Below are positions 1 to 41,752 of a stretch of 64,000 nt of DNA, piece after piece (position 1 is the stretch's first letter; each line of letters starts with the position of its first letter). The stretch comes from Sanghuangporus weigelae (taxonomy: Eukaryota; Basidiomycota; Agaricomycetes; Hymenochaetales; Hymenochaetaceae): contig CP137326.1 of the NCBI GenBank assembly GCA_033182465.1, forward strand, positions 1,705,501-1,769,500, read 5' to 3'. Below the pieces are notes generated by a model. The model ran no database searches and was not told the origin of the DNA. It saw nothing but the letters and a program-made list of their open reading frames with translations. The translations under genes and the position numbers were made by a program.

Positions 1-1516
1 CACCAGGCACTATAGGACACATCCCTCAGTGACTATGTGCCGCCGATCTTATGATTTACCATACGTACAGCCGTGCGGCGACTCTGGATGCCTCCGAGTC
101 GGCCCCCCTTGGTGCCGATCAATGCGGCGGACACTCAGACATCCTCAGGTACCCTCGCCGACGCCTCCTACAGCTTACCAAGCAGTCCCCCATTGTCTAG
201 GGAGCTATATATTGTCATATGTGCTTACATGCCTCATTATGATGTATCTGCCACCAGTCCGGCAGTCCCCCACAGCACTGCCGCTCCGGCCACTCATATT
301 AGTCACTAGGGATCGCCCACACTCTGTATTGAGTGCCGCCGATGCATCGGACACCTCAGGGACATTGGCTGATGCGCCCTTTGTCTCATATACGCGATAT
401 CAGCCTCCAATCATCGGTTCCGATGTTTCCCGACTTCCCCCCAACGCGGCGGCCCCCATTAGACTATGTATGGAAGGTAGACATGTGGTACATCGGCGTG
501 CCAAGCCACCGACTCGCGCCGCCAAGCCCAACTCCGCCGGCGCCCGTGTTATTGCAGATACTCAATATTTCATGTGATTGGATGCCCCCCTCACGTTGCC
601 GCTCTCAGATTTCACCTGGGCGCTCCGGCAGCGGCCCTTGGCGACCCAGATGACTCAGGAGATGTTGTCAGACAGTAGGATGTGTCGGCGACAGCAGTAG
701 AGTATATATAGAGCTTATACTAGCTTGTAGACAAAAGGATTCCAAGCCTAGCAAGGATTCCAAGAGCATGTACCAGACCGAGCGCCAGAGTTCGAGATAT
801 CCCTCACTCTGAGTCTCCCCTCATGTACTGAGCCTCCCCCTTGACTATATACTATCCTTGACATCTCCTCTTGTTTGACTCCACATTCTACTTGCCTCCG
901 CCGCCTCCGGTACGCCTCTGCCGCTCTGACGTTCAGTGATCCGGCGCCCCTCTATTCGACGTCGGCGACCCTTCGGCGACCCAGGCTTCTCATCAGACTC
1001 CCCTTCGGCGTCCTTTCCAGCCTTTCACTCCAGTTTATCCCATATATTGATCTTATACGGTCTTTTCCTTTCATCTATCGCGTTTACGCTACTTTGGTGG
1101 ATTCCTGCGGCCTCCCCCTCAGTCCGGCACCCCTCTATTCGACGTCGGCGGCCATCCGACGACCCAGGCATCCTATCAGACGACCCAGCGGCGCCTTCTC
1201 CAGCCACTCACTCCATTTTATCCTTTATATTCATCTTATACGCTTCATACCTTCCTGTGGCTGAGTTTATACCACGTCGGCAGCCTCTTGTGATCCCCCC
1301 TTTTGAGCAGCGGCCCTGCTATCCTATTCCCTTTATCCAGCGGCATCCTTAGACCTATCCATTACGTCTCCGACGGTTCCTGGCACCTGCCGGGTAGTAG
1401 GTCTTTGAGAGTCTGATAGCGTCGGCATCCCATTTTTGGAGGTCCCTTCATACATTCAGCACCCTTAGTAGGACAGACATCTGTAGCACCTTCAGATACG
1501 ACACCGCCGACCGACA
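1..1516 (+). mobile_element. Long LTR-like unit, left copy (cut by window edge)
   Basis: GC-rich unit that is the inverted copy of 10347-11862. It ends in CGACCGACA at 1516, where identity with the other copy stops abruptly. The right copy extends about 270 bp further, so this one begins outside the window. A TATA-like box (TATATATA) lies near 702-709, followed by a leader. That layout, with TG...CA ends on the full copy, fits a long LTR with its own promoter. It holds no recognisable protein; the open frames in it are by-products of its GC-rich composition. It could also be a non-autonomous element. I treat it as a fossil repeat. Confidence 0.6.
940..1262 (+). repeat. Two-copy direct repeat of about 185 bp inside the LTR-like unit
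   Basis: The segment starting CCGGCGCCCCTCTATTCGAC near 941 recurs near 1126 as CCGGCACCCCTCTATTCGAC, and the following Pro/Ser-frame sequence matches for most of the unit. The same duplication is present in the inverted copy (about 10620-10930), so it predates the spread of this family. Confidence 0.7.
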
Positions 1517-2600
1517 CCGCTCAAAATCTCGTGTCAGGATCGACGGTATCGCATCATGATCGGCATTCTAAACGACACGTAACCAAGCTAACGGACATGG
1601 GCGCTAACGGAGAACTCAAGCAGTCTAGACAATAGTAACCCATAGCTACCCGAGCGCTAGAAGCACGGTAACCGATACGTAATCCCGCCAACCACTCTAA
1701 CACCGCCGACCAGAAAACACTGCGGACGAGCACCTTAACGCCGATGACCAAACTACTGGAGCGACATCCATCAAAAGAACTCGAGAAGCGCTCAGACCTT
1801 CTTAGAAGCTCAGAAGCACAACTCCTAAAGCCTAATTACTAAAGACTAAAGGCTAATAAGGTTTATGGAGGCCACACTGGCATTTCAGCACTGTCAAGTC
1901 TGTGCTCACATTTACATGGTCCTCTATAAGGTATACTACCTAGTGGGCGTGTCTACTATTGGAACTTATGACTGTCACATCAAAACCGAGCGACATCTAT
2001 TGAACCAGCTACATGCCAATCCACCAAACCCGATTGTAACCAAGCGGCGAGAGGAACTTGTTATTACAACTCAAACCCCTCGAACTGCGAACCCGATAAC
2101 TTGGAGAATGGTTGGATGGTACAAACCAGAGTTGCATACAAGATGTTCAGCATCTACAGTACAAGCAAATCTCTATTTACCAAGAGATTCGAACCTGGAC
2201 ACCAAATCGCTACAACTCACAATCCAACGAAGGATATGGCAGTACATTCAAGACATTTGATATGATGGCAAAGCATGGCTAGTCACTCGAACCCAGCTAC
2301 ACCCACCTGCAGAGTATATGCAGTTCATGGTATCTCTCGGACCATACAGTACACTGACCCGACACCTGAATACCGACGTGCGAGCTACACTTACACTCAC
2401 TTGACCTCGAGACAAACTTCAAAGAGTCACCAACAGAGCAGCTTACATTGCCCCAAGAGCCAGGATCCCCCATGACGACAACAATGACGTTATAACAGAG
2501 CACTGACAGAGGAGTATGACATTTTGGGACACTACCTCTATTGTCTCAGTCAACATCCTCAGCGGCTCAGTCAGCACAGTGGAGCGACCTAACAAAGATT
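1517..2600. other. Unassigned repeat-derived sequence
   Basis: It has no gene I can recognise. An open frame at 1865-2260 (131 codons) resembles no family I know and has no clear neighbours in phase. The stretch lies between two LTR-like segments and is probably interior or flanking remains of old elements. Confidence 0.4.
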
Positions 2601-3096
2601 GGAGCAATGCGCAGCAAAGTGATGTCAAGCGCAGCAGTCCGCAGTAAAGCACAGCAGTCTGCAGCAATTCACAGCAGGAGAGCACTGCAAACTGCAGCAG
2701 AATGATGAAGAATCTGAGTAATGATGGAGCAAGGATGAGTAAAGTGGAAGCAGGATGAGTAAGAAATAGGACGGAAAATGGATTATTGGCAGGGCATAAA
2801 TAGGAGTAGAATTAGGCCCTCTTCCCCCATCTTTCGATTCTCTTAACACACGGTGTAAAGCCCTCACAAGCTATTACTGTGTGCTTTGTACTATCACGCC
2901 TCTTGGAAATCCCAATCTGCTTTACTGTTACCTCGTATCTGAAAGCATCCTTAACTCGGACAGCAACTAGGAAGGCCAGTAAGGGACCGCGTGGTATAGC
3001 CAGACAGCAGTAGATAAGATCACCTCTGCACAACACACTGCTGCTTAGGCAAAAGGATCGAACCGGTGTAACTCCGGGCCTACTCCCTAACACATA
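2600..3096 (+). mobile_element. LTR-like fragment
   Basis: A stretch rich in AGCAG/GCAG repeats is followed by a TATA-like GCATAAATAGGAG near 2796, a pyrimidine-rich start region, and an end at CTCCCTAACA. This order looks like the U3-R-U5 of an LTR. I see no partner copy in the window, so family and borders are guesses. Confidence 0.3.
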
Positions 3097-4190
3097 TATC
3101 AGGTGCAGTTACAATAGATCTTGGAGACATGTCTCTAGTTTTCTACACATGGTGGGCCACCACAAAGGCTTTAATAGTTGAGTCTCTTTGGCAAGCACCT
3201 CTTGATATAGAAAAACTGTCACTTTAAATGTTAGCAGAGACCCTAATAGAGAAGAACAACGAATGCCATATTTTCAAGAACCAAGTTCTTCAGAGATGGG
3301 AGAAGACAAGGGAAGCCATCATATTTGCTGCAAAAGATGAAATATCTACTGTAAGTTTGCATTTTTACTTGTACCGGGCTGGGTAACTTACAATTCAGAA
3401 CAATCTAAAGCTAAACCTCACAATATCCTGGAAATGAGTCTTAGAGTCTGAGTCAAGTAAAATGTTTTCTTCATGTCAATGTTACTACTGTGGCTATTTG
3501 CCACTTGTCTTCTGTACTCTTATTCTCCTGTAACGATCGGAATTTTGTAATGTATGCAATGTTGAATTTATATTGTGGTGAGGTTGCTAGGCAAGTTACT
3601 TACACCCTTCAGCACATGATCGCCTCTAATCTTCTCACGTGATTTTAAGTCGGACATGACCGCTTGACCGTAATGGTAACATCAGCAAAAAGTCCAAACT
3701 CTAAGACTAGCTTATAAGGGTATATAAGAGCAACAAGAGGGAGGATTGCCAAAATTGCTTATTTAATAAGTCATAATCTCATAATGTAGTAACAGTGATG
3801 TAAGGTGATTAATGACATATGAAGATCTGTGAGAGTAATTGATAACTGTATGATGATCAAAGACAATTGAATTTGTACATTACTGATTGACACTTAAATA
3901 TAATGAAGTGTCTAATGAAAATATAGTTGAGCGATCTGCACTTACAAATATGTTGAAGGACTTATTGAACCTAAGCAGTTCTCATAAGACTGATAACTAG
4001 ACACAAGACTTATGAGGATATATAATATACTGTTAGATTGTAGAAGACTATTCTATATTCATACAACACATTACACCAATGTAATTCCGATAACTGCATT
4101 ATATTTTCATTTGACTAGAATAGTATATTACAGAATAGAATAGTTGAGTATCAGTTAGCACGGCACATTAAGACGACTAAACTATGTCAG
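3097..4190. other. AT-rich stretch without genes
   Basis: Low GC, short homopolymer and TATA-like runs, no long open frame, and no similarity I recognise. It looks like decayed intergenic or heterochromatic DNA. Confidence 0.5.
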
Positions 4191-4232
4191 TAGCTCAGTA
4201 GGTCAAAGAAAATTTTGAAGTTCGAGCCTAGA
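4191..4232 (+). other. tRNA-like pol III promoter boxes (possible SINE head or tRNA relic)
   Basis: TAGCTCAGTAGG at 4191-4202 matches a tRNA A box, and AGTTCGAGCCTAG at 4219-4231 resembles a B box. They are only about 30 bp apart, shorter than in a real tRNA, and no acceptor stem can be paired. It is therefore either a shortened tRNA relic or the head of a tRNA-derived SINE, and chance is not excluded. Confidence 0.25.
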
Positions 4233-4282: not shown

Positions 4283-5078
4283 TATAAAGTCTCCTGCAGG
4301 AGAGTATGGAGTCGACGAAGAGCATGAAGGTTTGATGAGAGATCTAAGTCAGTACCATGATCGCGCATCATCGCAATGAATTAAAAATACATACCCTTCT
4401 TGTTCTTGCACTTGAATTCCTAAACAAAGTAAAGTAGTACACAAAGCGGCTGAGTGTCGATCATGGTGGCCTTGACTTCGAAAATACCCTGTTCAATGAT
4501 CAAAAGCAACACATCAAAGGTGCCGCCACCAAGGCTAAATATAAGGGCATTGCATTCACCTTGGATTAACAAGATTAAGCTTCATCATTTCACAATATAT
4601 ACCTTCACTTTCTTATATCGTTAAATTTGTCTCGAGTGCATTGCGATTCCTTTCTCGGCCTCCCTTTCTGGTCCAGCAGCTTGGTTTGAACATCGTCCAG
4701 TCTACATTCAGACATTAGTGAGTGCTCTTGATGAAGAACCAGATCTATCTGGTCTTTCTATTGCCTTCATGTTCAGTGCTATGCACTCGATATCTGTATT
4801 AAGCTTGGAGATGGACAAATTGTATATTGATCCCATCTCTGTTGACCCATCCTGAACAACCTGCATCAGCATCATTGTTCATATTAGAAAAGGACACTTC
4901 TTGTCAAGACCATATATGATAGCAGCTGCCATCAGCTCGATGATTCGGAGGATGTCGGTGCCACCAATGACACCGGTGTCCTTCATCACCTAATATTGCA
5001 AGTCATTGAAGTAAGCCAGGACAGTGATGATGGCCTGAGTGACGGTGCCATCAAAGTAGTGAAGTTGTCGTGAATAAG
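4283..5078 (-). pseudogene. Hsp70 (cytosolic SSA/Hsc70 type) relic
   Basis: Read on the minus strand, stretches of the Hsp70 ATPase domain follow each other in the right order: VLAYFND (family VPAYFND), then DTGVIGG..ILRIIE...AAAIIYGLDKK. About 320 bp of foreign or intronic sequence follows, then [24 protein letters not shown], written here in parts as SLGGGTFDV and [10 protein letters not shown]. After that come EFKCKNKK and DLSSNLHALRRLH. The copy is interrupted by in-frame stops, for example one just after the AYFND segment and one before EFKCKNKK, where CAG has become TAG. Many differences from the family are C-to-T (Pro to Leu, Arg to Cys, Ser to Leu). It is a dead partial copy of a host chaperone gene, not a retrocopy, because the blocks are separated by intron-like gaps. 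Confidence 0.8.
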
Positions 5079-8870: not shown

Positions 8871-11800
8871 TAATGTCGAGGCCACCCTACCGTCACCGTC
8901 TGAGGAGGGCAGCCGACACCCCACGTTTGATGGGTTGTAAGTCCTCAAGCCTGCTTGCTCTGCGATTGCCGAGTGAGCGTGCGAAGAGGCAGTAATTGTC
9001 TGTGACGTCTGACTCGGGCACTGGCGGGTTCTTCTATCCGATTGTTGCTCCACGCAAGGAGCCATCCCGCATGCTGCACCATGGCAATAAGTCCCATGCT
9101 TGCAGGCAATAAGTCCATGACGAGAGTACGTTCTTATGATTGCTAGCGGCACTGGTCACCCGCCGGCGATGTCTCAAGTTCTCGACTGCCAATGGGGAAG
9201 CGGCCGACAGCGCCGTAGTTGTTCGCTGATACGAGAGCAGGCGTTTCTGAAGAATGTTCGATGTAGCACCCTTTGCGTTTGCCGAGGCCCGACAAGAGTT
9301 GGGGGTTGTGCGACGCATCTTCGTTCCGACGATAACAAAAATCAAACCATTCAAATCGGCAACCCCTAGCGTACATTCTGTATTCACTCGCTAGTGTTAT
9401 TAACCATTGCCTGGCCCACCCGGCCGAGTCTAATCTGATACCGAGCGTAAAGCTTGATGCCCTAATTTTTCTTTCGTACACTCTATTCTTCGCTCATGAC
9501 GATGTCCGACCAGGAGAAGGACCATGATATAAGTTTTGAGGGCGTGCCTATCAACCCCATGCAGGCTTCGGGGACGTGCCTTCAACCCTGACGATCATTC
9601 ATTCACCCTACCCCGTTCTACCCGTGATTTTTTTTCTGTAGGGTAGATTGACTCATCCGTGGTAAGGACTACACAATTCGCCAATCTACCCGTGAATCGT
9701 CGGGACGACAATTCTTGAGGGAAATGTGGTATAGGGGAGATGTAAGTCTAGTGGAGCAGCGAGTGGGAGCACGAGTGGACGGGTGAGGCCTCCTGCGAAG
9801 CGAGGCGACTTTTCACTCGTTTCCTTTCGCTTCTCAAAGTGTCCTCCAACCCTGTGTTTCTCTGCTCGTCCTGACATGTCGCGGTCGAACAAACCCCTCC
9901 TTCCGATGCCCCACAGAGACATCCTCTTGCTCGAACTTGCGTATGTACAGAAGGAATTGAAGTCGCCTGAGAGGAAGAGATGGTCATCCCTGACAACGGC
10001 AAGGTTGTAAGTCCTTCGCATGCGCCAAGGCATCCTGAAGCTGTTCGAAGGCTCGATTTAATCTTTCTTTTGATGATAACAAGACCAGAAGTACAGAAAC
10101 AAGTAAAGCGAACATCCAAATCAAACCACCAAACGTCTCTTCCGATTCCCTAGAAGACGTCCATCGCGGACTTGTGTATGAGTTAAAGGAGCTGAAAATG
10201 TTGTAGAAGAAGAGATGGTCGTCTTCAAGGGCGAACAAGACTGTAAGTCCTTTGCGTATGCCAGGGCATTTTGACGATCAATCGAGAAGGCGGCAAGATT
10301 TTATTCTATAATATTGAAAGCGCTAACAACAAGGAAGCAAGACCGCTGTCGGTCGGCGGTGTCGTATCTGAAGGTGCTACAGATGTCCGTCCTACTAAGG
10401 GTGCTGAATGTATGAAGGGACCTCCAAAAATGGGATGCCGACGCTATCAGACTCTCAAAGACCTACTACCCGGCAGGTGCCAGGAACCGTTGGAGACGTA
10501 ATGGATGAGTCTAAGGATGCCGCTGGATAAAGGGAATAGGATAACAGGGCCGCCGCTCAAAAGGGGGGATCACGAGAGGCTGCCGACGTGGTATAAACTC
10601 GGCCACAGGAAGGTATGAAGTGTATAAGATGAATATAAAGGATAAAATGGAGTGAGTGGCTGGAGAAGGCGCCGCTGGGTCGTCTGATAGGATGCCTGGG
10701 TCGTCGGATGGCCGCCGACGTCGAATAGGGGGGTGCCGGACTGAGGGGGAGGCCGCAGGAATCCGCCGCAGTAGCGTAAACGCGATAGATGAAAGGAAAA
10801 GACCATATAAGATCAATATATGGGATAAACTGGAGTGAAAGGCTGGAAAGGACGCCGAAGGGGAGTCTGATGAGAAGCCTGGGTCGCTGAAGGGTCGCCG
10901 ACGTCGAATAGAGGGGCGCCGGATCACTGAACGTCAGAGCGGCAGAGGCGTACCGGAGGCGGCGAAGGCAAGTAGAATGTGGAGTCAAACAAGAGGAGAT
11001 GTCAAGGATAGTATATAGTCAGGGGGAAGGCTCGGTACATGAGGGGAGACTCAGAGTGAGCGATATCTCGAACTCTGGTGCTCGGTCTGGTACATGCTCT
11101 TGGAATCCTTGCTAGGCTTGGAATCCTTTTGTCTACAAGCTAGTATAAGCTCTATATATACTCTACTGCTGTCGCCGACACATCCTACTGTCTGACAACA
11201 TCTCCTGAGTCATCTGGGTCGCCAAGGGCCGCTGCCGGAGCGCCCAGGTGAAATCTGAGAGCGGCAACGTGAGGGAGGCATCCAATAGCATGGAATATCG
11301 AGTATCCGCAATAATACAGGCGCCGGCGGAGTTGGGCTTGGCGGCGCGAGTCGGTGGCTTTGCACGCCGATGTACCACATGCCTACCTTCCATACATGGT
11401 CTAATGGGGGCCGCCGCGTCAGGGGGAAGTCGGGAAACCTCGGAACCGATGATCGGAGGCTGATATCGCGTATATGAGACAAAGGGCGCATCAGCCGATG
11501 TCCCTGAGGTGTCCGATGCATCGGCGGCACTCAATACAGAGTGTGGGCGATCCCTAGTGACTAATATGAGTGGCCGGAGTGGCAGTGCTGTGGGGGACTG
11601 CCGGACTGGTGGCAGATATGTCGTAATGAGGCATGTAAGCACATATGACAATATATAGCTCCCTAGACAATGGGGGACTGCTTGATAAGCTGTAGGAGGT
11701 GTCGGCGAGGGTACCTGAGGATGTCTGAGTGTCCGCCGCATCGATCGGCGCCAAGGGGGGCCGACTCGGAGGCATCCAGAGTCGCCGCACAGCTGTATGT

Positions 11801-12242
11801 ATGGTAAATCATAAGATCGGCGGCACGTAGTCACTGAGGGATGTGTCCTATAGTGCCTGGTGCTGGGTAGGAGCTGTTGGCGGACCTGTCTGAGTGTCGG
11901 GGAGCCATCGGCGGATCGATTTGGGTCATAGGAGGGCGCCGCAGTACAGTACGTGTGCTGGAATCAATGGATACGTGCTCAAATGGTGTCTCGAGTGCAG
12001 TAGGAGTATGCCCTCACACTCTGAGGTGTCAGCGGTGCTGGGATATGGTATCTGCAGTATAGGGGGAGCCATAGTATGAGTGTACTGGCACAGGAGGGGC
12101 CAGTGTGCTACACCGCGAACCACCGACCGACGCCAAACGTCTTCAACAAGATCTTTTCACTGACATCCTCGATAGCGATCCAATGTGTGTTAGTAGGAAC
12201 CACCTCGGCTCATCGGGACAATGAGTCTTGAGGGAAATGTAA
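8871..12242 (+). mobile_element. Interior of the Ty3-like element, broken
   Basis: Between the two LTRs there is 3.4 kb with no recognisable gag or pol domain. A polypurine-tract-like CTTGAGGGAAATG sits just before the 3' LTR (about 12228-12240) and a second similar motif lies near 9713-9725. A short duplicated block (about 9915-10020 against 10130-10250) is also present. More than half of the interior is occupied by another repeat (10347-12131). The element is broken in many places and cannot be autonomous. Confidence 0.65.
10347..12131 (-). mobile_element. Long LTR-like unit, full copy (1.8 kb), inserted in the Ty3-like element
   Basis: It starts TGTCGGTCGGCGGTGTCG at 10347 and ends ACCACCGACCGACG at 12131, giving about 13 bp of inverted ends. 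It is the inverted partner of 1-1516, with an internal TATA-like box and the same 185-bp duplication. I see no clear target-site duplication. The best reading is a solo LTR or non-autonomous element nested in older repeat DNA. It contains no intact gene. Confidence 0.65.
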
Positions 12243-13134: not shown

Positions 13135-13424
13135 AATAGTACTATAGTTGATAGTTTATATAAATGCATAATAGTGAATAACCTGTATTTATTTATAGAG
13201 CAGTATAGTTTTGATGACCGTTATTAAGATATAAATGTTTAGTAGCAAATGACATACATTTTTATATTGAACAGCAAAATTTCTGATAGATCTTATTCAG
13301 ATACCATCATATGAGAAGAAGCAGAGGCCATACTATGCCACTAGCATCACTTTGAATGTAGATGAAGGCAAGTAAGTAAAGATGACCAAAACCAGTGAGA
13401 GTCACACCAGGCAAAGAGTTATTT
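13135..13424. other. AT-rich flank between LTR element and foldback elements
   Basis: It continues the ATAGT-rich tract and then becomes unremarkable AT-rich sequence. I see no gene. Confidence 0.5.
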
Positions 13425-13426
13425 TA

Positions 13427-14508
13427 CAGCTAAATGCAAAAAACCTGAGATTCACATGATTGCATCACTTTTTTTGTCACAAGAGCCTCAAAACACAAAA
13501 TAAATCATATCTCACCCAATACTTGTCCGGTTTGCATGATCTAAGTTGCTAAATTCATCATTTGATTGTTGGTTTCATATTCCAACTTGAGCGAGGGAAA
13601 ACAGTGCAAAAATGACCCCAAAATAGCGAAAATATAGTTTTTTGCCTCTTCTTTGCATGTGCATTTTTTTCTGTGATCCCTGATGGTCCAGAACCTCCCC
13701 AAAGCTATCCAAAATGATAACATGATTATATTATGAATTTACAGACTGAATTTGGATTGAATTGTGTACCAGAATGTACTGCTTTGAGGCATGCCTGAAT
13801 CACTCAAAACTTATCATTTCCCTCAGCCTCCCAAGCATCAGGAAAAAATCTTACAGACCAGATTCATGCATGTAAATTCATTTCAGGTGTAATAGACTAG
13901 GTTTGCATATTAGCTAGGGCCTCAGCATCCACTGGTGAGCTGTGGAGATGCTGTCTAGAATGGTGCATACAACCAGAACCTCTTGCTCAGTCCAGCTCAC
14001 CAGTGGATGCTGAGGCCCTAGCTAATATGCAAACCTAGTCTATTACACCTGAAATGAATTTACATGCATGAATCTGGTCTATAAGATTTTTTCCTGATGC
14101 TTGGGAGGCTGAGGGAAATGATAAGTTTTGAGTGATTCAGGCATGTCTCAAAGCAGTACATTCTGGTACACAATTCAATCCAAATTCAGTCTGTAAATTC
14201 ATAATATAATCATGTTATCATTTTGGATAGCTTTGGGGAGGTTCTGGACCATCAGGGATCACAGAAAAAAATGCACATACAAAGAAGAGGCAAAAAACTA
14301 TATTTTCGCCATTTTGGGGTCCTTTTTTGCTCTATTTTCTCATTTGTTCTTCCTATGAGAAAGTGCTTTCGAAAAGATGAATTTAGCAACTTAGATGATG
14401 TGAAAATGTTGAGATTTGGGTGAGATATGATTTTATCTGTGTTTTGAGGCTCTCATAGCAAGAAAAGTGGTAAAATCACGTGATTGCCAACAATTTTGCA
14501 ACTAGCTA
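13427..14508 (+). mobile_element. Foldback DNA element 1 (1,082 bp, TA target)
   Basis: Two arms of roughly 500 bp are inverted copies of each other around a spacer of about 50 bp near 13950-14000. The ends are CAGCTAAATGCAAAA and TTTTGCAACTAGCTA, each flanked by TA (13425-13426 and 14509-14510), which suggests a Tc1/mariner-type target. There is no transposase frame, so it is a large MITE-like or foldback non-autonomous element. The left arm has diverged more than the right. Confidence 0.85.
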
Positions 14509-14518
14509 TAAGACACTA

Positions 14519-15600
14519 CAGCTAGTTGCAAAATTATTGGCAATCACGTGATTTCACCACTTTTCTGCTATGAGAACCTCAAAACACAGATAAAATCAGA
14601 TCTCACCCAAATCCCAATGGTTTCACATCATCTAAGTTGCTAAATTCATCTTTTCGAAAGGGCTTTCGCTCAGGAAAAATTATCGAGAAAATAGAGCAAA
14701 AAAGGACCCCAAAATGGCGAAAATATTGTTTTTTGCCTTTTCCTTGCATGTGCATTTTTTTCTGTGATCCCTGCTAGTCCAGCACCTCCCCAAAGCTATC
14801 CAGAATGATAATATGATTATAAAATGAATTTACAGACTGAGTTTGAGTTGAATTGTATACCAGAATGTGCTGCTTTGAGGCATGTCTGAATCACTCAAAA
14901 CTCATCATTTCCCCCTAGCCTCCCAGGCTCCAGGAAAAAATCTTACAAGCCAGATTCATGCATGTAAATTCATTTTAGATATAATAGACTAGGTTTGTGT
15001 ACTAGCTAAGGCCTCAGCATCCACTAGTGAGCTGGGCTGAACAAGTGATTCTGGTTGTATGCATCATTTTAGACAGCATCTTCCCAGCTCACCAGTGGAT
15101 GCTGAGGACCTAGCTAGCACATAAACCTAGTCTATTATATCCAAAATAAATTTACATGCATGAATCTGGCATGTAAGAATTTTTCATGGAGCCTGGGAGG
15201 CTAGGGGGAAATGATGAGTTTTGAGTGATTCAGACATGCCTCAAAGCAGCACATTCTGGTACACAATTCAACTCAAACTCAGTCTGTAAATTCATTTTAT
15301 AATCATATTATCATTCTGGATAGCTTTGGGGAGGTGCTGGACTAGCAGGGATCACAGAAAAAAATGCACATGCAAGGAAAAGGCAAAAAACAATATTTTC
15401 GCCATTTTGGGGTCCTTTTTTGCTCTATTTTCTTGATAATTTTTCCTGAGCGAAAGCCCTTTCGAAAAGATGAATTTAGCAACTTAGATGATGTGAAACC
15501 ATTGAGATTTGGGTGAGATCTGATTTTATCTGTGTTTTGAGGTTCTCATAGCAGAAAAGTGGTGAAATCACGTGATTGCCAATAATTTTGCAACTAGCTG
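14519..15600 (-). mobile_element. Foldback DNA element 2 (1,082 bp, TA target)
   Basis: Same family and same length as the element ending at 14508. The ends CAGCTAGTTGCAAAA and TTTTGCAACTAGCTG are near-perfect inverted copies, flanked by TA at 14517-14518 and 15601-15602. The central spacer (about 15035-15080) is the reverse complement of the spacer of element 1, so the two lie in opposite orientation, separated by only ten bases including their TA targets. The arms match closely enough to fold as a hairpin of about 500 bp. Confidence 0.88.
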
Positions 15601-15602
15601 TA

Positions 15603-17000
15603 ATCCCTTGTAAACCACTATAGTGTAAAAGAAGAACTCTTGCAGTGTCAATCTACACAAGTAGGAATTCTCAATAAAACCCTGCACCTCTGAACTGAAA
15701 TCATCTTTTGTAAAGTGCGATAGTGTTTGATATCTGAAGCCGAATGAGTTACACTTCCCTTCCATAGATTACTGACTGATGCAAATAGACACTAGTGACT
15801 ACCATCTGCTTGACGTTATTGTTCTCTTTGAGATTCTTCTGAGAATATTGACTAGAGGGATCACAAGCCAAATTAAGCTCCCGTTCAACTTGACTCTTAA
15901 AGGAATTAGCGATCCATGGCCACATCTTTTATGACTCTAGCAACATTCTGTTTCTGCATCTTAATCTGCTCCGTGATGTATGACATTGTTTCTTAGTCTA
16001 CAACCGTATCATCAATACCGATACTGAATCTATTGTGAAACAGCCAATAATTGATGATATTCTGCAGACTCGTAAAGAGTGTTCATGTAGTTTCAGGACC
16101 TTTCTTTCAGAAAACAATATGCACCAGGCAGCCCTGAGATGCACCAATAGTCTTCTTTCTCAATAATACTAAAGATGATATTGTCATTCTCAATCAGTAT
16201 GCTATCATCAAAGACTGGACTCCATGACTTGTTCTTGGACAATCAGAAAATGTTGATCACATACGGTACTGTCATGTTAAGAGTTTGCTTACCCATTCAT
16301 AAAGGTTTAGGTTTTAAAGTGATTGGTGTTGGGATCGTGCCATCCCGATTCAGTATCCAAAACAGTATACTCTGTACTTGTTGTCAATTAAAGAAATAAT
16401 TGCACAAGGTGAACTTGCGAATACCACAAAGAGTATCCTGCACAACATCAATAACAGGCTTGGGGTGAAATAATCTGCCTGGGAACTCATTCTATTTGAC
16501 TGAGCTCGGCCCAAGTCTTCTTGCTCTAAGGGACACTACGTGAAGATGAGAAACTATAGCAAAAGGCAACAGTGATGTGATGTACTGCATGTTCATTTCA
16601 TCGCTATCGAAGTCAGCATTATATGGAGGAGTGATGGAAAGATTGAGACAAAAGGCTAAAATAAATTGGTCAGAGTTCATACATGAACATGAAGGTCGAG
16701 CACGCACTTGAATAGGGCATTAGTCAGACCCTGTGACACATCATAGACATTTTGTGCAACAATGGTTGTTGGTTGAAGAGGACATAACTGAGTTGATAAA
16801 CAAATTAGACTAGATCAACCGCTACTGAAGAGGAAACTTACTCTCTGTTCTTTCAATGACCCATCCATACTGAAGAAATGCATCTGCACGTTTATTGCAC
16901 CGAAGATCTATATGCTCCCCAGTATCTTTCCAGTTTTAAATAACAGTCTTCCTGCTGTGAATGTGTCGTACGCATCCGCATTTTTGGTGACTTTCCCACA
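15603..17000 (-). pseudogene. RPB1 (RNA polymerase II largest subunit) relic
   Basis: Minus-strand landmarks in family order: [18 protein letters not shown] and QYGWVIER (about 16920-16840), then an intron-like GT...AG gap, then VLFNQQPLLHKMSMMCHRV (about 16785-16720). Next come LNLSITPPYNADFDSDEMNM (about 16660-16590) and DGTIPTPITLKPKPL (about 16345-16300). Last is GFRYQTLSHFTKDDFSSEV plus ENSYLCRLTLQEFFF (about 15745-15630). The catalytic NADFDGD motif reads NADFDSD, a G-to-A change that would abolish a strictly conserved position. Several stops and frame breaks lie between the blocks. Its 3' end stops exactly at the TA target of foldback element 2. HKMSMM and the FTKDD block point to RPB1 rather than RPA1 or RPC1. 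The kept intron shows DNA-level duplication. Confidence 0.87.
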
Positions 17001-17129: not shown

Positions 17130-20100
17130 ATTTGTTTGTAATCATTGGGACTTGTGAACATGGGGAGTCAATCTTGTTTTTGCGTGCTTACTCTTTTGTT
17201 GCACGTGACGAGGTTGACTTTGCAACTCACGACCTCACATGTCACTTCCCTCCTCCTCGGCCTCCTTCCTCCATCCTCCTTACTGTCCAAGGCAGGTCCT
17301 TCGCGTTTGTCGACGCCTGCTCTTCCTACGTCGAACGGTACTGGAAAGACATGGGAAGAAGTGCGTGCTGCACGTTTCTTCTTTGATTGTCGTGCTTGCT
17401 GAATTCTACTTTCATGAACTTTAGCTTGTCAAGGCACGAGAAGAAGAACGTGCTTGAGCCATACGTGAAGGCCGAAACGACTCGAGGAAGCTATCACTTT
17501 GGTTGGAACCTGTCAAGACATGTGTCCCGAATTCGAACGCTACCGACGAGAAAGGGTGAACAACCTCGACAAATGGGAATGCGTGCGTCCATGCTAACTC
17601 CTGAGTGATGTTGACTTTAAGCTGCACTTATGACTTTGCTGTTTTTTTAGATTATCGTTCCGGACGGGAAACCAACCAAGGAGGTCGATCATGCTCGCAC
17701 TGTTAAAATCTATGAACGTGGCCAGGGAGACAAGATTATCCCTTCGGATTTACGACGTCCTCCTGTCTTAAAGGTACATACTAATTCGTTCCTCTTCCCT
17801 CACGTCAATTCAAATATGTTGTAGAGAACTCTCGACTACCTCTTTCACGACCTCATTCCAAGAGGTGGCTTCGCGGAGACTCAGGCATTTGTCTGGGATC
17901 GCTCTCGAGCTGTACGCAACGATTTCACGATTCAGCAAGACAGCGGACCAATAGCTATCGAGTGTCACGAATGATGTACACGTTTTCATATCCTTTCACT
18001 CCATCTCATATACGACGTACGTACATTCGGTCGAGCTTTGGAGATCCAGCAGCTTATGAACTGTGAGTCCTCGACCTTGTCACCACTTTGTTGTCTGAAT
18101 CTTTACGCCTGCAAAAGCTCTGCTGTCTCTGAAGGAGTTCTACGACGATCAAAGAGGAAAGGACGAATCACCTAACGAATTGGAGATGCGTATATACCAT
18201 CGTCTCGGCCTCATCCGTGACCAGCATGAACGAAACGATAGACCTCCACTGTTTATCGCCGTCGACCCAGCCTCCCAGCTTATATCTCATTCCCGCAGCG
18301 AAGTCCAGGCTGCCAGCAATCCAATTACAAGGATTTCGAAGCTCAGAGCCAATGGGGCTGCCATGCAAACGTTTGCCGAACTGGCGAGTGTCCTGCGGGA
18401 GCGACAGAATGAGAAGCAAGATGAGACAAGCGCTTTCATTCAGGAAGATGAAGAAGCCGTAGAAGCGGATGATATTCTTGACACATCTCAACCCGACGAC
18501 GGTCCTGCAAGTACCCAAGAACAGACGTTATCTCAGTCTAGGTCTGCTCCAGGTCCAGGTATCTACTCGGTGATCTATGTATCCTCGGCTTTTCATAGCT
18601 CACTTCATTCTCAGAACTTTCTTCAGCGTCTCCCTTTGGACGTCCGACAACTCAGACGACTTTTGTGCCGGTTCCCGCGGGTGGATCTGTATTCGGCAAG
18701 ATTGTCAGCTCCTCATCCACTCCTGCAGTTATTGGAAAGCGGGGCTCTCATCAGTTTTCGGTACTGCATTCAATACCTTCCAATCTGCTCCGAACGTATT
18801 TGGTGGTCCTGTGTTTGGCGTCCCTGCAACCTCTAGCTCTGCATCTCCCAAGATAGTCGAACCTCCGAAACCTGCTGTCTCCGCATTTCCACCTCGGCCT
18901 CCCTCCACCAGCAAACCCGCAAAGTCCATCACACCTTCTACGTCGACTATTCTGCAAGAGACAAAACCATTGCGAAGTCTTGCGGATGTAGGACCTCTTC
19001 TGTCAGAGGGCGAAGAAGATCGAGTGTCTTCCTCTGAAGCTGTCAGAACACCCGCACCCCCTCCGTTCTCAACCTCACAAAGCGCACCGACTCTCAACCC
19101 TTTTGCACAAGCTTTGAACCTAGTCCCTTCAGAGCATCGAAGTCTGCGTCATTATTTCCTCCCACTTCAAGAGCCAGTCTCCCTCCTTTGAAGACGGACT
19201 CGCCGCTGAGTAGGACCGTGGACCCTTACGCGCGGCTTTACAACACCTGTAGACTCGCCATCGCAATCATTCCTTTCACCTCTGAAGCATCCGAGCGGGT
19301 CGGCTCTGTCATTAGATACCGGCCCAGTCTTGCAATCTAATGACGAGTCTCTGCGCTGGACTCACCCGTTGCGCCTCCGGTCTTGGCTTGCAGGGCCAAT
19401 ATTTCCTTACACGGAACACCCACATCTGCTTTCGCATCTTCTGCTGTACCTCCTGCAGAACCTACGACTCCTTCAACGTCTTACCATTTTCCCACTCTCC
19501 GAGTAAACATATCTGCAACGATGACTAGCACTCCACATCCTCAACCATCATCAAGTCCCCGCATCGTAGAAATTTCTGAAATTCCGTCTCCCGACCATGA
19601 TACACCCTCTTCATCGACATCTATCGCCAATGGAAAGGAACCGCTCTCCCGGCGCCAAGAAACGGTTACGAGAGCAGGCGATGTCTTTCAACCGAACTCA
19701 CGGTCTCGTTCATGAGATATACAGGCGATGGAAGCAAAAGATGTAGAATACAAAGGTTTGCCGAAGAAGCGACGAATATAAACAAAGGATTCACGAGAGT
19801 TCGACGAACGGCTCGATTGGGTCAACTGGCTCAATACCCTCATCCTCGTCCTTCACGAGGCAAAGGAGTGAGCCTGAACTTGACACAGAGCAGCCAAAAC
19901 GTCCACGACGGAGCCTCAGGAATGTCTCAAATCCGGAGGATGTACGTACGGACGAGGAACTCGCTGAAAAACTCATGCAGGTGCGATACATAGTCCCAAG
20001 TTGTTGGATGCGTCATTTAAGAACACATATCAGAACCATGAGAAAAATGAACGTAGATGGGTGAAAGGCCAGTTCGTCAAGGTCATCCAGGAGTACGTGC

Positions 20101-20178: not shown

Positions 20179-21476
20179 GATTCAGCAAGACAGCAGACCA
20201 ATAGCTATCGAGTGTCACGAATGATGTACACGTTTTCATATCCTTTCACTCCATATACAACGTACCTACGTTCGGTCGAGCTTTGGAGAAGGTCCCGCAG
20301 CTTATGAATCGTGAGTCCTCGACCTTGTCGCCACGCGGTCGGCTGGTTCCAGCGAGGTAAGTACAGTGCCTTCCAAGCACTCATCAGATCCTTATTTCTT
20401 GGAATTCTCCTTGCGGTGATTGCTCTCTCGTCGGTGCTAATGACAGTCAACTTCATTCTTGTTTCAGAACCCGAGGATCGCGTCTACTCGTTCCTACCGC
20501 AGTCTGCGCGATATGTCGTCCTCGACCGCCGCCGCTGCAACTGTTGCCCCAGTAGCATCGAACTCAGGATCACGTTCGCGGTCTGGTTCCTCTGCCCGCT
20601 TTCTCAGTGTAAACACTCAGGCAGCGTCCTCGGAGCCCGTGCCGAACATCCCACAGATGTCTGGGCATAACGTGTTACGCACACCTGACAGCATCGATGG
20701 AAGCACGATGTCGCCGGCGGTTCAGAATAGCGCGAGTAGCAGCTCTCCTGCTTCGGCCATTGCATCATCCGCAGTTGGCTCGCCGACGACCAATGGCACA
20801 CATGGCCAACCACAGCAATCTAGAGACCGTTCGTTGACGCATAAAAACTCGAGCAGGACGATTGGAGGCTCGTCTGTACTTAGCGTGACAACCAACTCAA
20901 ACGTCAATCCGCCGCGTAAGACTTCCCGGCGTCTGCTCTGCGTCCTTCTGGAGCTTCAAAAGAGCCCTCTCGCACGCGTGAGAAGGAGAAGACCGCTGGC
21001 AAGGCACTGGGACGGTCACGGACGGAGAACAGAGATACTACTGACGAAGACGACGCGGAAGCCAGGATACTTCGCATGCTCCTGCACGATACTGAGCCTG
21101 CACCTCCAACTCTGATGTATTGGTCTCGTGCGCCCGTCTGGGGTGCTCTGCCGATGCACAAGATGCGGAGCCATAGTGCGACCGTTGTGGACCACTTTGT
21201 TGTCTGAATCTTTACGCCTACAAAAGCTCTGCTGTCTCTGAAGGAGTTCTACGACGATCAAAGAGGAAAGGACGAATCACCTAACGAATTGGAGATGCGT
21301 ATATACCACCGTCTCGGCCTCATCCGTGACCAGCATGAACGAAACGATAGACCTCCACTGTTTATCGCCGTCGACCCAGCCTCCCAGCTTATATCTCATT
21401 CCCGCAGCGAAGTCTAGGCTGGCACAGTCCGATTACGAGGACTTCGAAGCTCACAGTCAATGGGGCTGCCATGCAA
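20179..21476 (+). pseudogene. Sac3-domain partial duplicate (copy 2), split by a kelch-gene fragment
   Basis: 20179-20320 repeats 17928-18085 and 21190-21476 repeats 18088-18367, with a few percent difference. Copy 2 carries the same TGA stop (20222-20224) as copy 1, so the duplication happened after that mutation. It starts directly behind the C-terminal piece of copy 1, giving a head-to-tail arrangement. Confidence 0.85.
20321..21189 (+). pseudogene. Kelch-repeat gene fragment inserted in Sac3 copy 2
   Basis: The insert begins with a short exon, then a clean intron (GTAAGTAC...TTTCAG, about 20356-20467). It continues as a Ser/Ala-rich exon with MSSSTAAAATVAP, SRSRSGSSARFLSV and a basic stretch, and ends with TEPAPPTLMYWSRAP and VWGALPMHKMRSHS. 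The last part matches the entry of the beta-propeller in basidiomycete kelch proteins (Tea1-like). It stops in mid-gene at the re-entry into Sac3. The retained intron shows capture of genomic DNA rather than cDNA. One frame slip lies near the middle of the second exon. The kelch assignment rests on memory of the family. Confidence 0.6.
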
Positions 21477-37226: not shown

Positions 37227-39078
37227 TCATGAAGAAGAACGGATCTCAGACGGGACGACAATCCAGAGCAGCAACATCATCCCCATCGAAGCAACAACGC
37301 TGTCGAGTCAATTAAGTTTGTAATATCACCTAAAGTACGTATTTACGTACAGAGGCTGCAAGCTTGTCACCCCGTATTTCGACGAAATAGCTCCAGTTAT
37401 GAATGGCAAGAGCGCAGAACCCATCTGACCGCAGCTTCCAATCCAACCGATTGCGCCGTTTGCCAGCCAGTGTGGAATCACGCGGCCAGCAGTATTGGTG
37501 ATGATAGAGTAAATAGGTCCGAACAGGAACCCGATGAAAGCTACGGCTACAGCATTCTTGACCACAGAAGGTATAAACCAGATTGTTAATTCAAGTCTGA
37601 GGAAGATATGCATCAACTATATATCAAAGCATGTCTTATGAGCTCACCCGATGCAGAGACTAATGTATATGAAGACCACACGTTTCTCTCCAATCTGTCA
37701 GCAATTTCATATATGGACGTAAGTTGTATGTCCATCGTTTTTGTCAGTAAGGCGCACAATCTTGTTGACTGGCAGCAGAACTAGACGTCCAGTAGTCAAT
37801 CCTGCAAAAAATCCGGATGAAATGTAACTGGATGAGGTGCCGCCATTCCTCTCTTGGATAATAAATGTGACGATCCAACCACCAAGACTGACTTCGGTTC
37901 TGACGTAGGCGAGCGTAAAGAATGCAAGCAGATGAACGACTTTCAGTCTGAATATTTGTTTATACAAGCCTCTGTCCGGCGAACTAGCACTGTCGTGCAC
38001 AACTTGGCCTGCTTTGTTCAGAATAACTTGATAACATTTTCTTTAGTCTAAGTGTGATTCGCATTTGCAAGGAATCAGACCAACCTTCCATCCGTCGAAA
38101 ACGAAAGACGAGGCAAATGGCAACAAGATTGATGACAGCCCCACTGAAAGAAACGAAGTAATGATAGGACCAGTGAGGCATAGTAGAGAACCTAGTCGCC
38201 GCCAAGGGAGAGACAAGAGCTCCTACTCCATATAGAGCCAATAGAAGCCCCATTTTGTTTGAGCTATTCTTGAGATTGATAACGAATGTCAGGGAGCCAG
38301 CGGCCTTGTATTACGTTAAGCCTGTGTAAAATGAAGAGAATAGCAGTGGCTTACCTGGAGGGAGAGACCGAAACCAGAGAAGAAGTAAGCTATAGCGAAG
38401 ACGGAAAACGGCGGTGCAGGACCTTGGATGCAATAACCTATTGCTTGCATGGCAGCGCCGACTGCTAAAGTCTATCGATCGCATAAGATTAAAGAAATTC
38501 TTTGAGAGGAGAATTGTCACCGTCCCAAATCCAAGCTTTTGTATCATTCTGATGTTGGCAATTGCAGCAGACACAAATCCCTACCGAGAACAGTGAGTAA
38601 AATATGAGATAGGAACTAACAATAACTCATGATGCAATTCGATACGAAAATCATTGACACGACAGTGTAACCAATCTTATTGTCTACTGAGAAGTTTTAA
38701 AAGAAAGGAATACAGAATGCTCACTTTGTAATGACTCTGCATGGTCGGTAACAAAGGACCAGTAGTGCCATCATTCCAGCCTTGCATGAAGAGAATTCCA
38801 AGCGTAGTACAGTAGCTTAGGATCTCAAACCGTCGTTCCTTCTTCGACGTTTCCGACAAAACAGATGGACTTTTTCCTCCACTAGCCACGTCCATGGAAT
38901 TCTGGGTTGAGTCGAATTCGGAGACTTTGAGCTCATCCTTCAATGTCAGTGTTCCAATTGGAGTACTGGGAACGGAGGGTATAGGTGGTATGTTGACGGA
39001 AGATATGACGGACGTTTTCGGCTTCCCGGCAGTACTCTTCTTTTCAAGGTCGGCGAGAGTGGAACTCGTGTCTGCCAT
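37227..39078 (-). CDS. MFS transporter, copy 1 (Bsc6/fucose-permease-like)
   Basis: Nine exons (minus): 38725-39078, 38631-38675, 38521-38580, 38355-38471, 38085-38304, 37758-38026, 37648-37694, 37351-37596 and 37227-37299; 476 residues. A hydrophilic N-terminus is followed by about 12 membrane segments. Motifs: GWNDGTTGPLLPTMQ, FSGFGLSLQ, LYGVGALVSPLAAT, SSGFFAGLTTGR, GPIYSIITNTAGRVIPHW and GCGQMGSALLPF-like sequence. The family moves small solutes across the plasma membrane; the substrate is unknown. All nine exon lengths equal those of its neighbour at 39878-41752. Intron 2 begins AT instead of GT (38629-38630), which may impair splicing; a GTATCG 15 bp upstream could serve in frame. Same strand as GH127. 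Confidence 0.85.
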
Positions 39079-39877: not shown

Positions 39878-41752
39878 TTATTCCGAACGACGGACATCAG
39901 GAGGGACAGCAGCCCAAAGCAAAAGCATCAGACTCAGTGCGGCTACGATCCTGCGAAGTCAAGGCTGTTCAGTAAAGACAAATTGTAAGTTACGCGGAAA
40001 CGTCTCTTACAAAGGCTGTAAGCTCGAGACCCCGTACTTCGAGGAGATAACGCCGGTGACAAATGGAAGAAGAGCAGAGCCCATCTGTCCGAAGCCTCCA
40101 ATCCAACCGACAGCTCCATTCAATAGCCAGTGAGGAACGAGGCGACCTGCCACACTCGTGATGATAGGATAGATCGGACCGAGGAGGAAACCGATAAAAG
40201 CGACCGCGATGGCGTTCTGGATCAAGGAAGGCACGAACCAGATCGTAATCTCTAGTCTTCATTTGTTGGAGAATGTCAGTTTAGACCAATGCACGTTATC
40301 CGATGGACATACACGATGCAACAAGCGGTGTAGAGGAAAACAACTCTGCGCTCTCCAACCTTTGCAGAAAGTTAGTAACAGATTCTGACCCTGTCCCTTG
40401 CATCCAGACTTACTAATTTGTTGACCCACAGCAAGGCCAGACGCCCTACAGTCAATCCTGCGAAAAAGCCAGATGATAGATATCCGGAAGATGCGCCACC
40501 GCCTCGCTGTCGGATGACGAACGTCACGATCCATCCACCGATGGTGACTTCCGTCCCGACATACGTGAGGGAGAAGAACGCAAGCAGATGAACAACTTTG
40601 AGCCTGAAAATTTGGCTGTAGAGATTCCCACTCGGCGAGTTTCTGTTATCGTGCACCACCTGTCCCGATTTGCGCAGAATCGCTAGAACGAGACATCATA
40701 AATAAAAGGATTTCAAACATATTACTGATCATACGTACGGTCCATATGCTGGAAGCGAAAAACGAGGCACAAAACGATGACGTTAACAAAAGCACCGCCT
40801 AAGGACGCCAAATAATGGTAAGACCAATGTGGCATTGCAGAGAACTTCGTTGCAGCCAGCGGAGAAGTGAGAGCGCCCAGACCATAACAGGCCTGGAGGA
40901 CACCCATCTTCGCCGAGCTGTTCCTTAGGTTAATGACGAAGACAATGGCACCAGCATTCTGAAGCTGCGTTGAGGAGGGGAAAACCGGGAAGGTGATAAT
41001 TGCCAACCTGCAAAGCGATTCCGAAGCCTGAAAAGAAGAGCGCCATAGCAAAGACTGGGAACGGTGGTGCCGGAGCTTGAATGCAGTAAGCGATCAATTG
41101 CGAGACCGCACCAATCACCATTGACTGTAGACAGTCACTTCAATTTTCGCAGTGATGGACAAATATGGTCGCTTACCGTCCCGAATCCCAATTTCTGTAC
41201 AAGCCTGATGTTGACTGCTGCACCAGAAACAAATCCCTTATGATGATGCCCTCGTAAGGCGTCAGTTGATCGATTATAGCGCTTGGGCGCTCACGATGCA
41301 GTTCACCACGAAAATCATAGATACAGTCGTATAGCCGATCTGAAAGAGTGCGCACTTAGCTTCTTGAGGATAGACTTGTAAGAGAAAGCAAGACTTGCGT
41401 TGTAGTGCTCTTGCATGGCTGGAATCAGCGGACCGTTTGTTCCGTCATTCCAGCCCTCCATGAAGATACACCAAAGAAGGGCGCAGAAACTCATCAGCTC
41501 TACCCGACGCTGTTTCTTTGGGTTATCTGGTAAGGCGGCTGGAGGAGCGGTGGTGTAGTTTCCCGAGGGAATGATAGTGAGTTCAAAGGACTCGTGTTCG
41601 CTCTTCGGCGTCGAAGCTCCAGTCGGCGTGGTGAACCCAGACGTAACAGGAGTATTAACCGCAGACTCTACAGACACGGTCGGCTCCTCGACTTCCTTCT
41701 TGCCCTTCCTCTCGAGGTCCACTTCGGCAAAAGAAACAAATTTTCCTCCCAT
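39878..41752 (-). CDS. MFS transporter, copy 2 (Bsc6/fucose-permease-like)
   Basis: Nine exons (minus): 41399-41752, 41295-41339, 41177-41236, 41008-41124, 40739-40958, 40414-40682, 40313-40359, 40011-40256 and 39878-39950; 476 residues. Landmarks: EGWNDGTNGPLIPAMQ, SMIFVVNCI, FFSGFGIALQ, CYGLGALTSPLAAT, SSGFFAGLTVGR, GPIYPIITSVAGRLVPHW and FGQMGSALLPFVTG. About 12 membrane segments follow a 90-residue Ser/Thr/Pro-rich N-terminus. The first intron has a GC donor (41397-41398) with a good GCAAGT context, a known minor class. It is a tandem duplicate of copy 1. All other borders are canonical, so this is probably the fully working copy. The role is inferred to be sugar or acid uptake, possibly tied to the GH127 gene. 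Confidence 0.88.

Follow-up and report, generated by a model that had tools for sequence, protein, structure and literature searches.

Foldback MITEs of Sanghuangporus weigelae and larger Tc1/mariner-type elements with transposase sequence in both arms

Two adjacent inverted-repeat elements, E1 and E2, in the genome of the medicinal fungus Sanghuangporus weigelae are probably non-autonomous foldback MITEs of the Tc1/mariner type that are moved by the transposase of larger elements and whose two arms copy each other at times. They lie in a window of 64,000 nucleotides (contig CP137326.1, positions 1,705,501 to 1,769,500), and coordinates given below without a contig are those of the window. The foldback pair by itself is ordinary; its weight comes from a partner with a duplicated transposase and from the sequence marks of arm copying. 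The origin of foldback elements and of very long inverted ends is an old open question, and a single group of elements here offers a natural series of truncated duplicate transposase arms, a fresh multi-kilobase tract and many finished palindromes, in which each step leaves a countable mark. The large elements are also a probable source of enzyme for the MITE family of this fungus.

The E1-E2 pair and its family

E1 (13427-14508, 1,082 bp, minus strand) and E2 (14519-15600, 1,082 bp, plus strand) are separated by the 10-bp stretch TAAGACACTA (14509-14518), which holds one TA of each element; E1 is flanked by TA at 13425-13426 and 14509-14510, and its strand is arbitrary, stating that its spacer is opposite to that of E2. 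A first-pass annotation of the window had described two 1,082-bp elements in opposite orientation, ten bases apart and flanked by TA, and all of this is read directly from the sequence, including the TA on all four sides and, from the spacers, the orientation. Its description of both elements as near-complete palindromes with a common terminal sequence is accurate for E2, which has that sequence at both ends, and fails for E1, in which the outer ~180 bp on the left are diverged and do not continue the near-complete palindrome. The arms of E2 (14519-15036 and 15083-15600) are 97% complementary across a 46-nt gap, and measure 530 nt at the same 97% in an inverted-repeat search that includes a few flanking bases. 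Only in E2 does CAGCTAGTTGC stand at both ends; E1 starts with CAGCTAAATGC and ends with GCAACTAGCTA. The inner palindrome of E1 (13608-14327) has arms of 335 nt that are 99% complementary around a 50-nt gap (13943-13992), whereas its outer left arm (13427-13607), of a diverged end type, has not been homogenised with the right arm of the same element, to which it is 52-76% identical; the inverted-repeat search aligned the outermost arms (13424-13563 and 14372-14511) at only 76%. In its first 100 columns the outer left arm is 88-90% identical to L003b (C9:1674861), the closest element there. E1 is thus a mosaic, with 99% identity between inner arms and ~67% between outer arms, and would represent a hybrid of two end types whose homogenisation stopped short. 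Oriented alike, E1 and E2 match at 916 of 1,080 aligned columns (84.8%), and none of the stop-to-stop frames in the interval 13427-15600 reaches 110 aa, as in MITEs without coding capacity.

The genome that was searched comprises 33.87 Mb in 13 contigs; the published description of the S. weigelae genome gives 13 contigs, 33.96 Mb, a GC content of 47.93% and an N50 of 2.77 Mb, and the genome table in that paper has entries for 1,215 MITEs (1.16%) and for TcMar elements, both given as classes, with no such family described in the table (PMC10803629). Allowing up to three mismatches, the 18-bp end of the elements matches the genome 162 + 162 = 324 times, compared with 12 + 9 = 21 for the reversed control, so that the further copies predicted by the first-pass annotation exist in number. 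When the search is confined to the window, the 15-bp end, also with up to three mismatches, has four matches, which is not above chance (shuffle mean 1.81; four reached in 9 of 100 shuffles). The MITE arm has at least 86 matches genome-wide, with 40 of 217 candidates scored, and the relatives of E2 are mostly 92-96% identical to it. In the list of exact ends, the first 100 include 70 that combine into 35 pairs, each enclosing an element of 1,081-1,089 bp. A set of 31 elements was extracted, consisting of E1, E2 and 29 from loci L001-L038 whose two ends could both be identified and lay the expected distance apart; the set excludes copies in which at most one end was identifiable (such as L004, L005, L007, L014 and L015) as well as repeat entries for a single place, and a core set of 26 further omits five diverged elements (E1, L003a, L003b, L006 and L008). 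All 31 share the same non-palindromic centre, and therefore the palindrome arose once and then spread.

TA stands on both sides of all 31 elements, which is partly by construction because the search pattern held TA. T precedes the TA in 26 of the 31 and A follows it in 21, so that TTAA is favoured as insertion context. The copy at L017 sits in a dispersed repeat, and its flanks, when joined with one TA, align without a gap at the junction to three paralogues that lack the element; these empty sites are 71-76% identical to the joined flanks, read CA at the junction and have gaps further out, and are consistent with a target duplication of 2 bp, TA, in this one copy. For the TA-flanked empty sites that the first-pass annotation had asked for in related strains, this one copy offers paralogous empty sites within the same genome. 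A one-off local rearrangement, which that annotation had set against a transposon family, is excluded for E1 and E2 themselves, though not for how both became neighbours.

Some loci hold composites in which a left MITE piece of 117 bp or 152 bp is followed by a full MITE (L083, C1:3724100-3726600; L024, C9:942622-943825; C6:26318-27559). At L024 and L083 the left piece is followed by further MITE copies at an internal TA, and no right remainder was seen. These composites suggest joint use of ends that belong to different copies. At L084 (C4:2613400-2616200) a MITE is tandemly duplicated along with the same 114-bp stretch.

Large elements with transposase sequence in both arms

The large element at C1:3791089-3803508 was first met as two unpaired MITE-like ends enclosing two inward-facing matches to the transposase domain DDE_3. 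It is 12.4 kb long, with inverted arms of 2,096 bp that are 97.6% identical (read in L063 and L064), and its end, TACAGCTAATTGCAAAATTGTTGGCAAT, agrees with that of an adjoining MITE at 27 of 28 bases and with that of E2 at 26 of 28; the part common to E2 and the large transposase-bearing elements is the TA and the first 26 bases of E2 (14517-14544, plus strand), and the left end of E1 has diverged from this common terminal sequence. The element interrupts a MITE, pieces 1-927 and 935-1082 of which lie on its two sides and add up to the usual copy length if one TA is counted; this junction, read by eye in one element, is that of a TA target duplication. The exact 18-mer of this end type (A-type) has 25 matches in the genome and none for the control. 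By spacing, 16 of the 25 pair into eight candidate elements of 10-18 kb and nine remain unpaired. Seven of the eight candidates have inward-facing DDE_3 matches in both halves, the left match of C2:344165 being below the cut-off, and the eighth, C11:1375477-1386335, has no DDE_3 match. An 801-bp internal probe found 13 places, or about a dozen large elements. The large element on C13 (~10 kb) is 95-97% identical to that on C1 in collinear pieces, apart from insertions, and no internal frame tested in a large element matched a Pfam family above its cut-off. A partial MITE (C13:1444300-1444925) abuts the C13 element on its right, and its remainder was not seen in the 98 bases to the left. Behind the 97.6% arms of the C1 element lie further inverted stretches (L063 3563-3744 and L064 1865-2047) that are only 75-77% alike and may be relics of an earlier arm of greater length.

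The DDE_3 domain in the left arm of the C13 element scores 38.7 bits (E 1.1e-9), above the cut-off, and the HTH_SB match of the transposase, at 21.8 bits, falls short of the cut-off of 43. By a hand count across a predicted intron of ~50 bp, 34 residues separate the E of the transposase from the second D, and stops occur in several of the transposase pieces. The DDE_3 domain and the TA duplication place the large elements in the Tc1/mariner superfamily as far as sequence can assign them. In all three elements examined for it (C1, C13 and C2) the arm border is identical and falls inside the last part of the putative transposase gene. In C1, the one element in which the border was translated, the right-hand copy continues in frame for 43 residues past the border and ends in ...SYSFFRHCRYDVLV, which we take to resemble a Tc1-type tail, and the left-hand copy meets a stop four residues past the border. 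This is most simply read as copying of the right arm onto the left end by a tract that broke off within the gene, a single event that preceded the spread of the family.

From their common ends and their predicted enzyme, the large elements are the probable mobilising partners of the MITEs: a transposase made by elements with nearly the same end would cut the MITEs out and paste them at TA, preferably at TTAA. Outside the terminal ~28 bp the MITE arms have nothing detectable in common with the large elements, so the argument for cross-mobilisation is one of ends alone, and derivation of the MITE arms from a large element by internal deletion was rejected for the same lack of similarity. Other partners fared less well. 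The four matches to transposases of the DDE_1 (pogo/Fot1) type lie in loci (L039-L042, ~3.4 kb each) without the ends, no MITE ends were present in the loci of the first 20 of 134 DDE_3 matches (L043-L062, ~3 kb each), and a compact Tc1 element in L053, with 35-bp terminal inverted repeats, was rejected since its end (TA CAGCTGGGTATCAAAA) diverges after a few bases. The last is a separate element of ~1.33 kb (L053 688-2017; C6, near 631 kb) with the terminus TA CAGCTGGGTATCAAAAGTGACCGTCACT. The larger element with the same ends and a transposase that the first-pass annotation had recommended looking for is thus at hand, agreeing over nearly all of the terminal 28 bases, and together with the many copies and the TA duplication it bears out the non-autonomous, Tc1/mariner-related family that had been proposed.

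MITEs of the Tc1/mariner type include Stowaway of plants and mimp/impala of Fusarium, and most MITEs are shorter than the present ones and have short inverted ends. With these MITEs E1 and E2 share the TA target, the lack of coding capacity and the ends in common with a transposase-bearing Tc1/mariner element, and in the features tested (TA duplication, shared terminal sequence and absence of coding capacity) their sequences are those of a Tc1/mariner MITE; unlike most MITEs, the members of the family are 1,081-1,089 bp long and almost wholly palindromic. The large elements resemble the composite-like KolobokP transposons in being eukaryotic DNA transposons with long terminal copies, but KolobokP, as far as its published description was consulted, has direct long repeats with short terminal inverted repeats of their own and an internal transposase (PMC9587614), whereas the arms of the large elements are inverted, lack inner ends and contain the transposase sequence. 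Bacterial IS630 composite transposons have an enzyme of a related superfamily and, like the large elements, a copy flanking each side, but each side is an insertion sequence in the parts of that work consulted (PMC9977792), and the large elements examined show no inner inverted terminus, either inside the arms or where the arms end, which rules out membership among composite transposons. Among the open-access papers listed, outside Repbase, none could be recognised from its title or the beginning of its abstract as describing a Tc1/mariner element whose inverted arms each contain a transposase, which is weak evidence of absence.

Concerted change of the two arms

The two arms of a foldback element resemble each other more than arms drawn from different elements. 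Mean identity between the arms of one element is 96.44% in the set of 31, compared with 93.53% under random pairing, and in no shuffle out of 20,000 was 96.44 reached (maximum 94.92); in the core set of 26 the values are 97.23 and 95.53. Between elements, left-left (93.1), right-right (93.8) and left-right (93.4) identities are alike, and there are therefore no side-specific arm lineages. Two elements, L012 and L038, each have identical 500-bp arms. Thus the arms of these foldbacks appear to evolve in concert, which is new here, and some of the concordance could reflect shared subfamily ancestry. It is improbable that ancestry is the whole explanation, the MITEs being an ordinary Tc1/mariner family whose arms are alike by subfamily descent without any copying from arm to arm. 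Subfamilies exist, as is seen in the centres and in the two end types; the closest relative of an arm is the opposite arm of its own element in only 17 of the 31 foldbacks (14 of the 26 core elements), so that for 14 of the 31 the nearer opposite arm belongs to a different copy; and over 54 variable columns 210 cells have the minor base confined to one arm. Against this, a change in one arm cannot pass to the other by descent alone, left and right arms form no separate lineages, and the minor base occurs in both arms in 136 cells compared with 56.3 expected for independent arms, an expectation that ignores relatedness. At each of four columns (49, 370, 373 and 415) two elements have the minor base, both of them in the left and the right arm, and no element has it on one side only; the two elements may be the same related pair in all four cases.

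The large elements, of which five arm pairs were compared, show the same pattern unevenly. The arms of the C2 element are 99.6% identical to each other and 96.9-97.8% identical to the arms of other elements. Private variants, scored in an alignment that omits the left arm of C12:745379 on account of its insertion, occur in both arms at 16 positions and in one arm at six in C2, and at eight and three in C12, compared with three and 35 in C1 and six and 33 in C13. The predominance of one-arm variants in C1 and C13 means that conversion is episodic at best.

The longest tract, and a further point against descent alone, is found at C12:44773-60748, where the left side holds right-hand sequence, including ~1.6 kb that in C13 is unique to the right side. 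The inverted arms of this element align over ~5.5 kb at 97.6%; they have no difference over positions 900-4,200 (3.3 kb), are 99.7% identical to position 4,800, and then, on nearing and passing the far end of a repeat of ~1.8 kb that is present on both sides, drop to 98, 84 and 76%. The two copies of this repeat are 91-92% and 96-97% identical to those of the window, and because they differ in this respect they may have inserted separately, with the copied tract ending inside them. In the window the same repeat forms an inverted pair (1-1522 and 10341-11862) whose copies are 96.7% alike, the left copy beginning at the first base.

The preferred reading, in which arms are copied from each other at times, joins these observations by a mechanism whose pathway is conjectural. 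A break in one arm would be repaired with the element's other, inverted arm as template, by gene conversion or fold-back repair; such repair would homogenise the arms, and a copied tract that ran past the old border would leave the arms longer. In the large elements such copying, probably from right to left, would have brought the transposase gene into both arms, and in the MITEs the arms already extend to the ~46-bp centre. Arm lengths from 2.1 to ~5.5 kb are seen among the large elements. A wider proposal, to which about even chances may be given, is that a Tc1/mariner lineage repeatedly makes palindromes of itself, the copying of one end over the other during repair doubling the transposase, lengthening the repeats step by step and finally yielding pure foldback MITEs, and conversion between arms refreshing the binding ends in older copies. 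A comparable process has been proposed for Galileo of Drosophila, a member of the P superfamily: in the sections of that work consulted, its long foldback arms are 98-100% alike within a copy, repair of one terminal inverted repeat from the other is suggested to copy past the repeat, and '2-TIR' derivatives average 1.7-2.2 kb (PMC3573991). As far as the corresponding account goes, Galileo has a P-superfamily transposase and a 7-8-bp target duplication (PMC4168063). The elements of S. weigelae resemble it in having foldback arms that are alike within a copy and in the repair-based copying proposed, and differ in their Tc1/mariner DDE_3 enzyme, 2-bp TA and transposase gene inside both arms; the 2-bp TA target and DDE_3 enzyme rule out membership in the Foldback/Galileo group.

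Adjacency of E1 and E2

That E1 and E2 are neighbours is probably incidental. Among the 35 elements bounded by the listed exact ends, as paired above, five pairs of neighbours are separated by less than 2 kb, the tightest by 114 bp, and another pair of MITEs on C9 lies ~150 bp apart. If two separate insertions are true, the empty site would be 13426 joined to AGACACTA and then 15603; a query of the genome with the flanks found no paralogous empty site for the pair.

A possible, though less probable, route is ectopic recombination or deletion between MITE copies in place of two clean insertions. The right flank of E2 (15601-16300, plus strand) is a dispersed repeat that was found at 16 other places, and in all six of the other copies examined it runs on upstream of TTAATC, whereas at E2 the likeness ends at the TA of the element; the left side of E2 has therefore been exchanged or lost. 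In addition, the ten bases TAAGACACTA together with the MITE end recur exactly at one other place, C9:942614, where they precede a composite in which a 117-bp MITE piece is joined to a whole MITE; a match that differs at two bases lies at C4:162069. The TA on all four sides, on the other hand, is what two insertions would leave, and the same picture would result if the left flank had been deleted afterwards.

That the pair is one functional unit, moving, folding or being transcribed together, is very improbable. Inverted matches between E1 and E2 are 85-87% identical over inner stretches and 76-77% where the outer left arm of E1 takes part, and the adjoining ends form a 50-nt palindrome of 94% with 6 nt between, so that cross-folding of the pair is possible; the four alternating arms with several folds described by the first-pass annotation have real cross-matches behind them, which argue only weakly for one four-arm unit. 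The composites with a 117-bp or 152-bp left piece likewise indicate that ends of different copies do become neighbours. Opposed to this are the identity of only 84.8% between E1 and E2 and the lack of any second E1-E2 unit in the genome, whether sought with a query of joined 300-bp flanks or with a pattern of spacer plus end. The predicted RNA fold of E2 alone, at -929.2 kcal/mol with no shuffled comparison, is very stable, as expected of such a palindrome, and effects of E1-E2 through double-stranded RNA or cruciforms are speculation. Elsewhere in the window there are two direct duplications, 37348-38436 with 40008-41089 (65%) and 18072-18368 with 21179-21476 (95%), the latter overlapping a frame with a weak match to SAC3/GANP below the cut-off.
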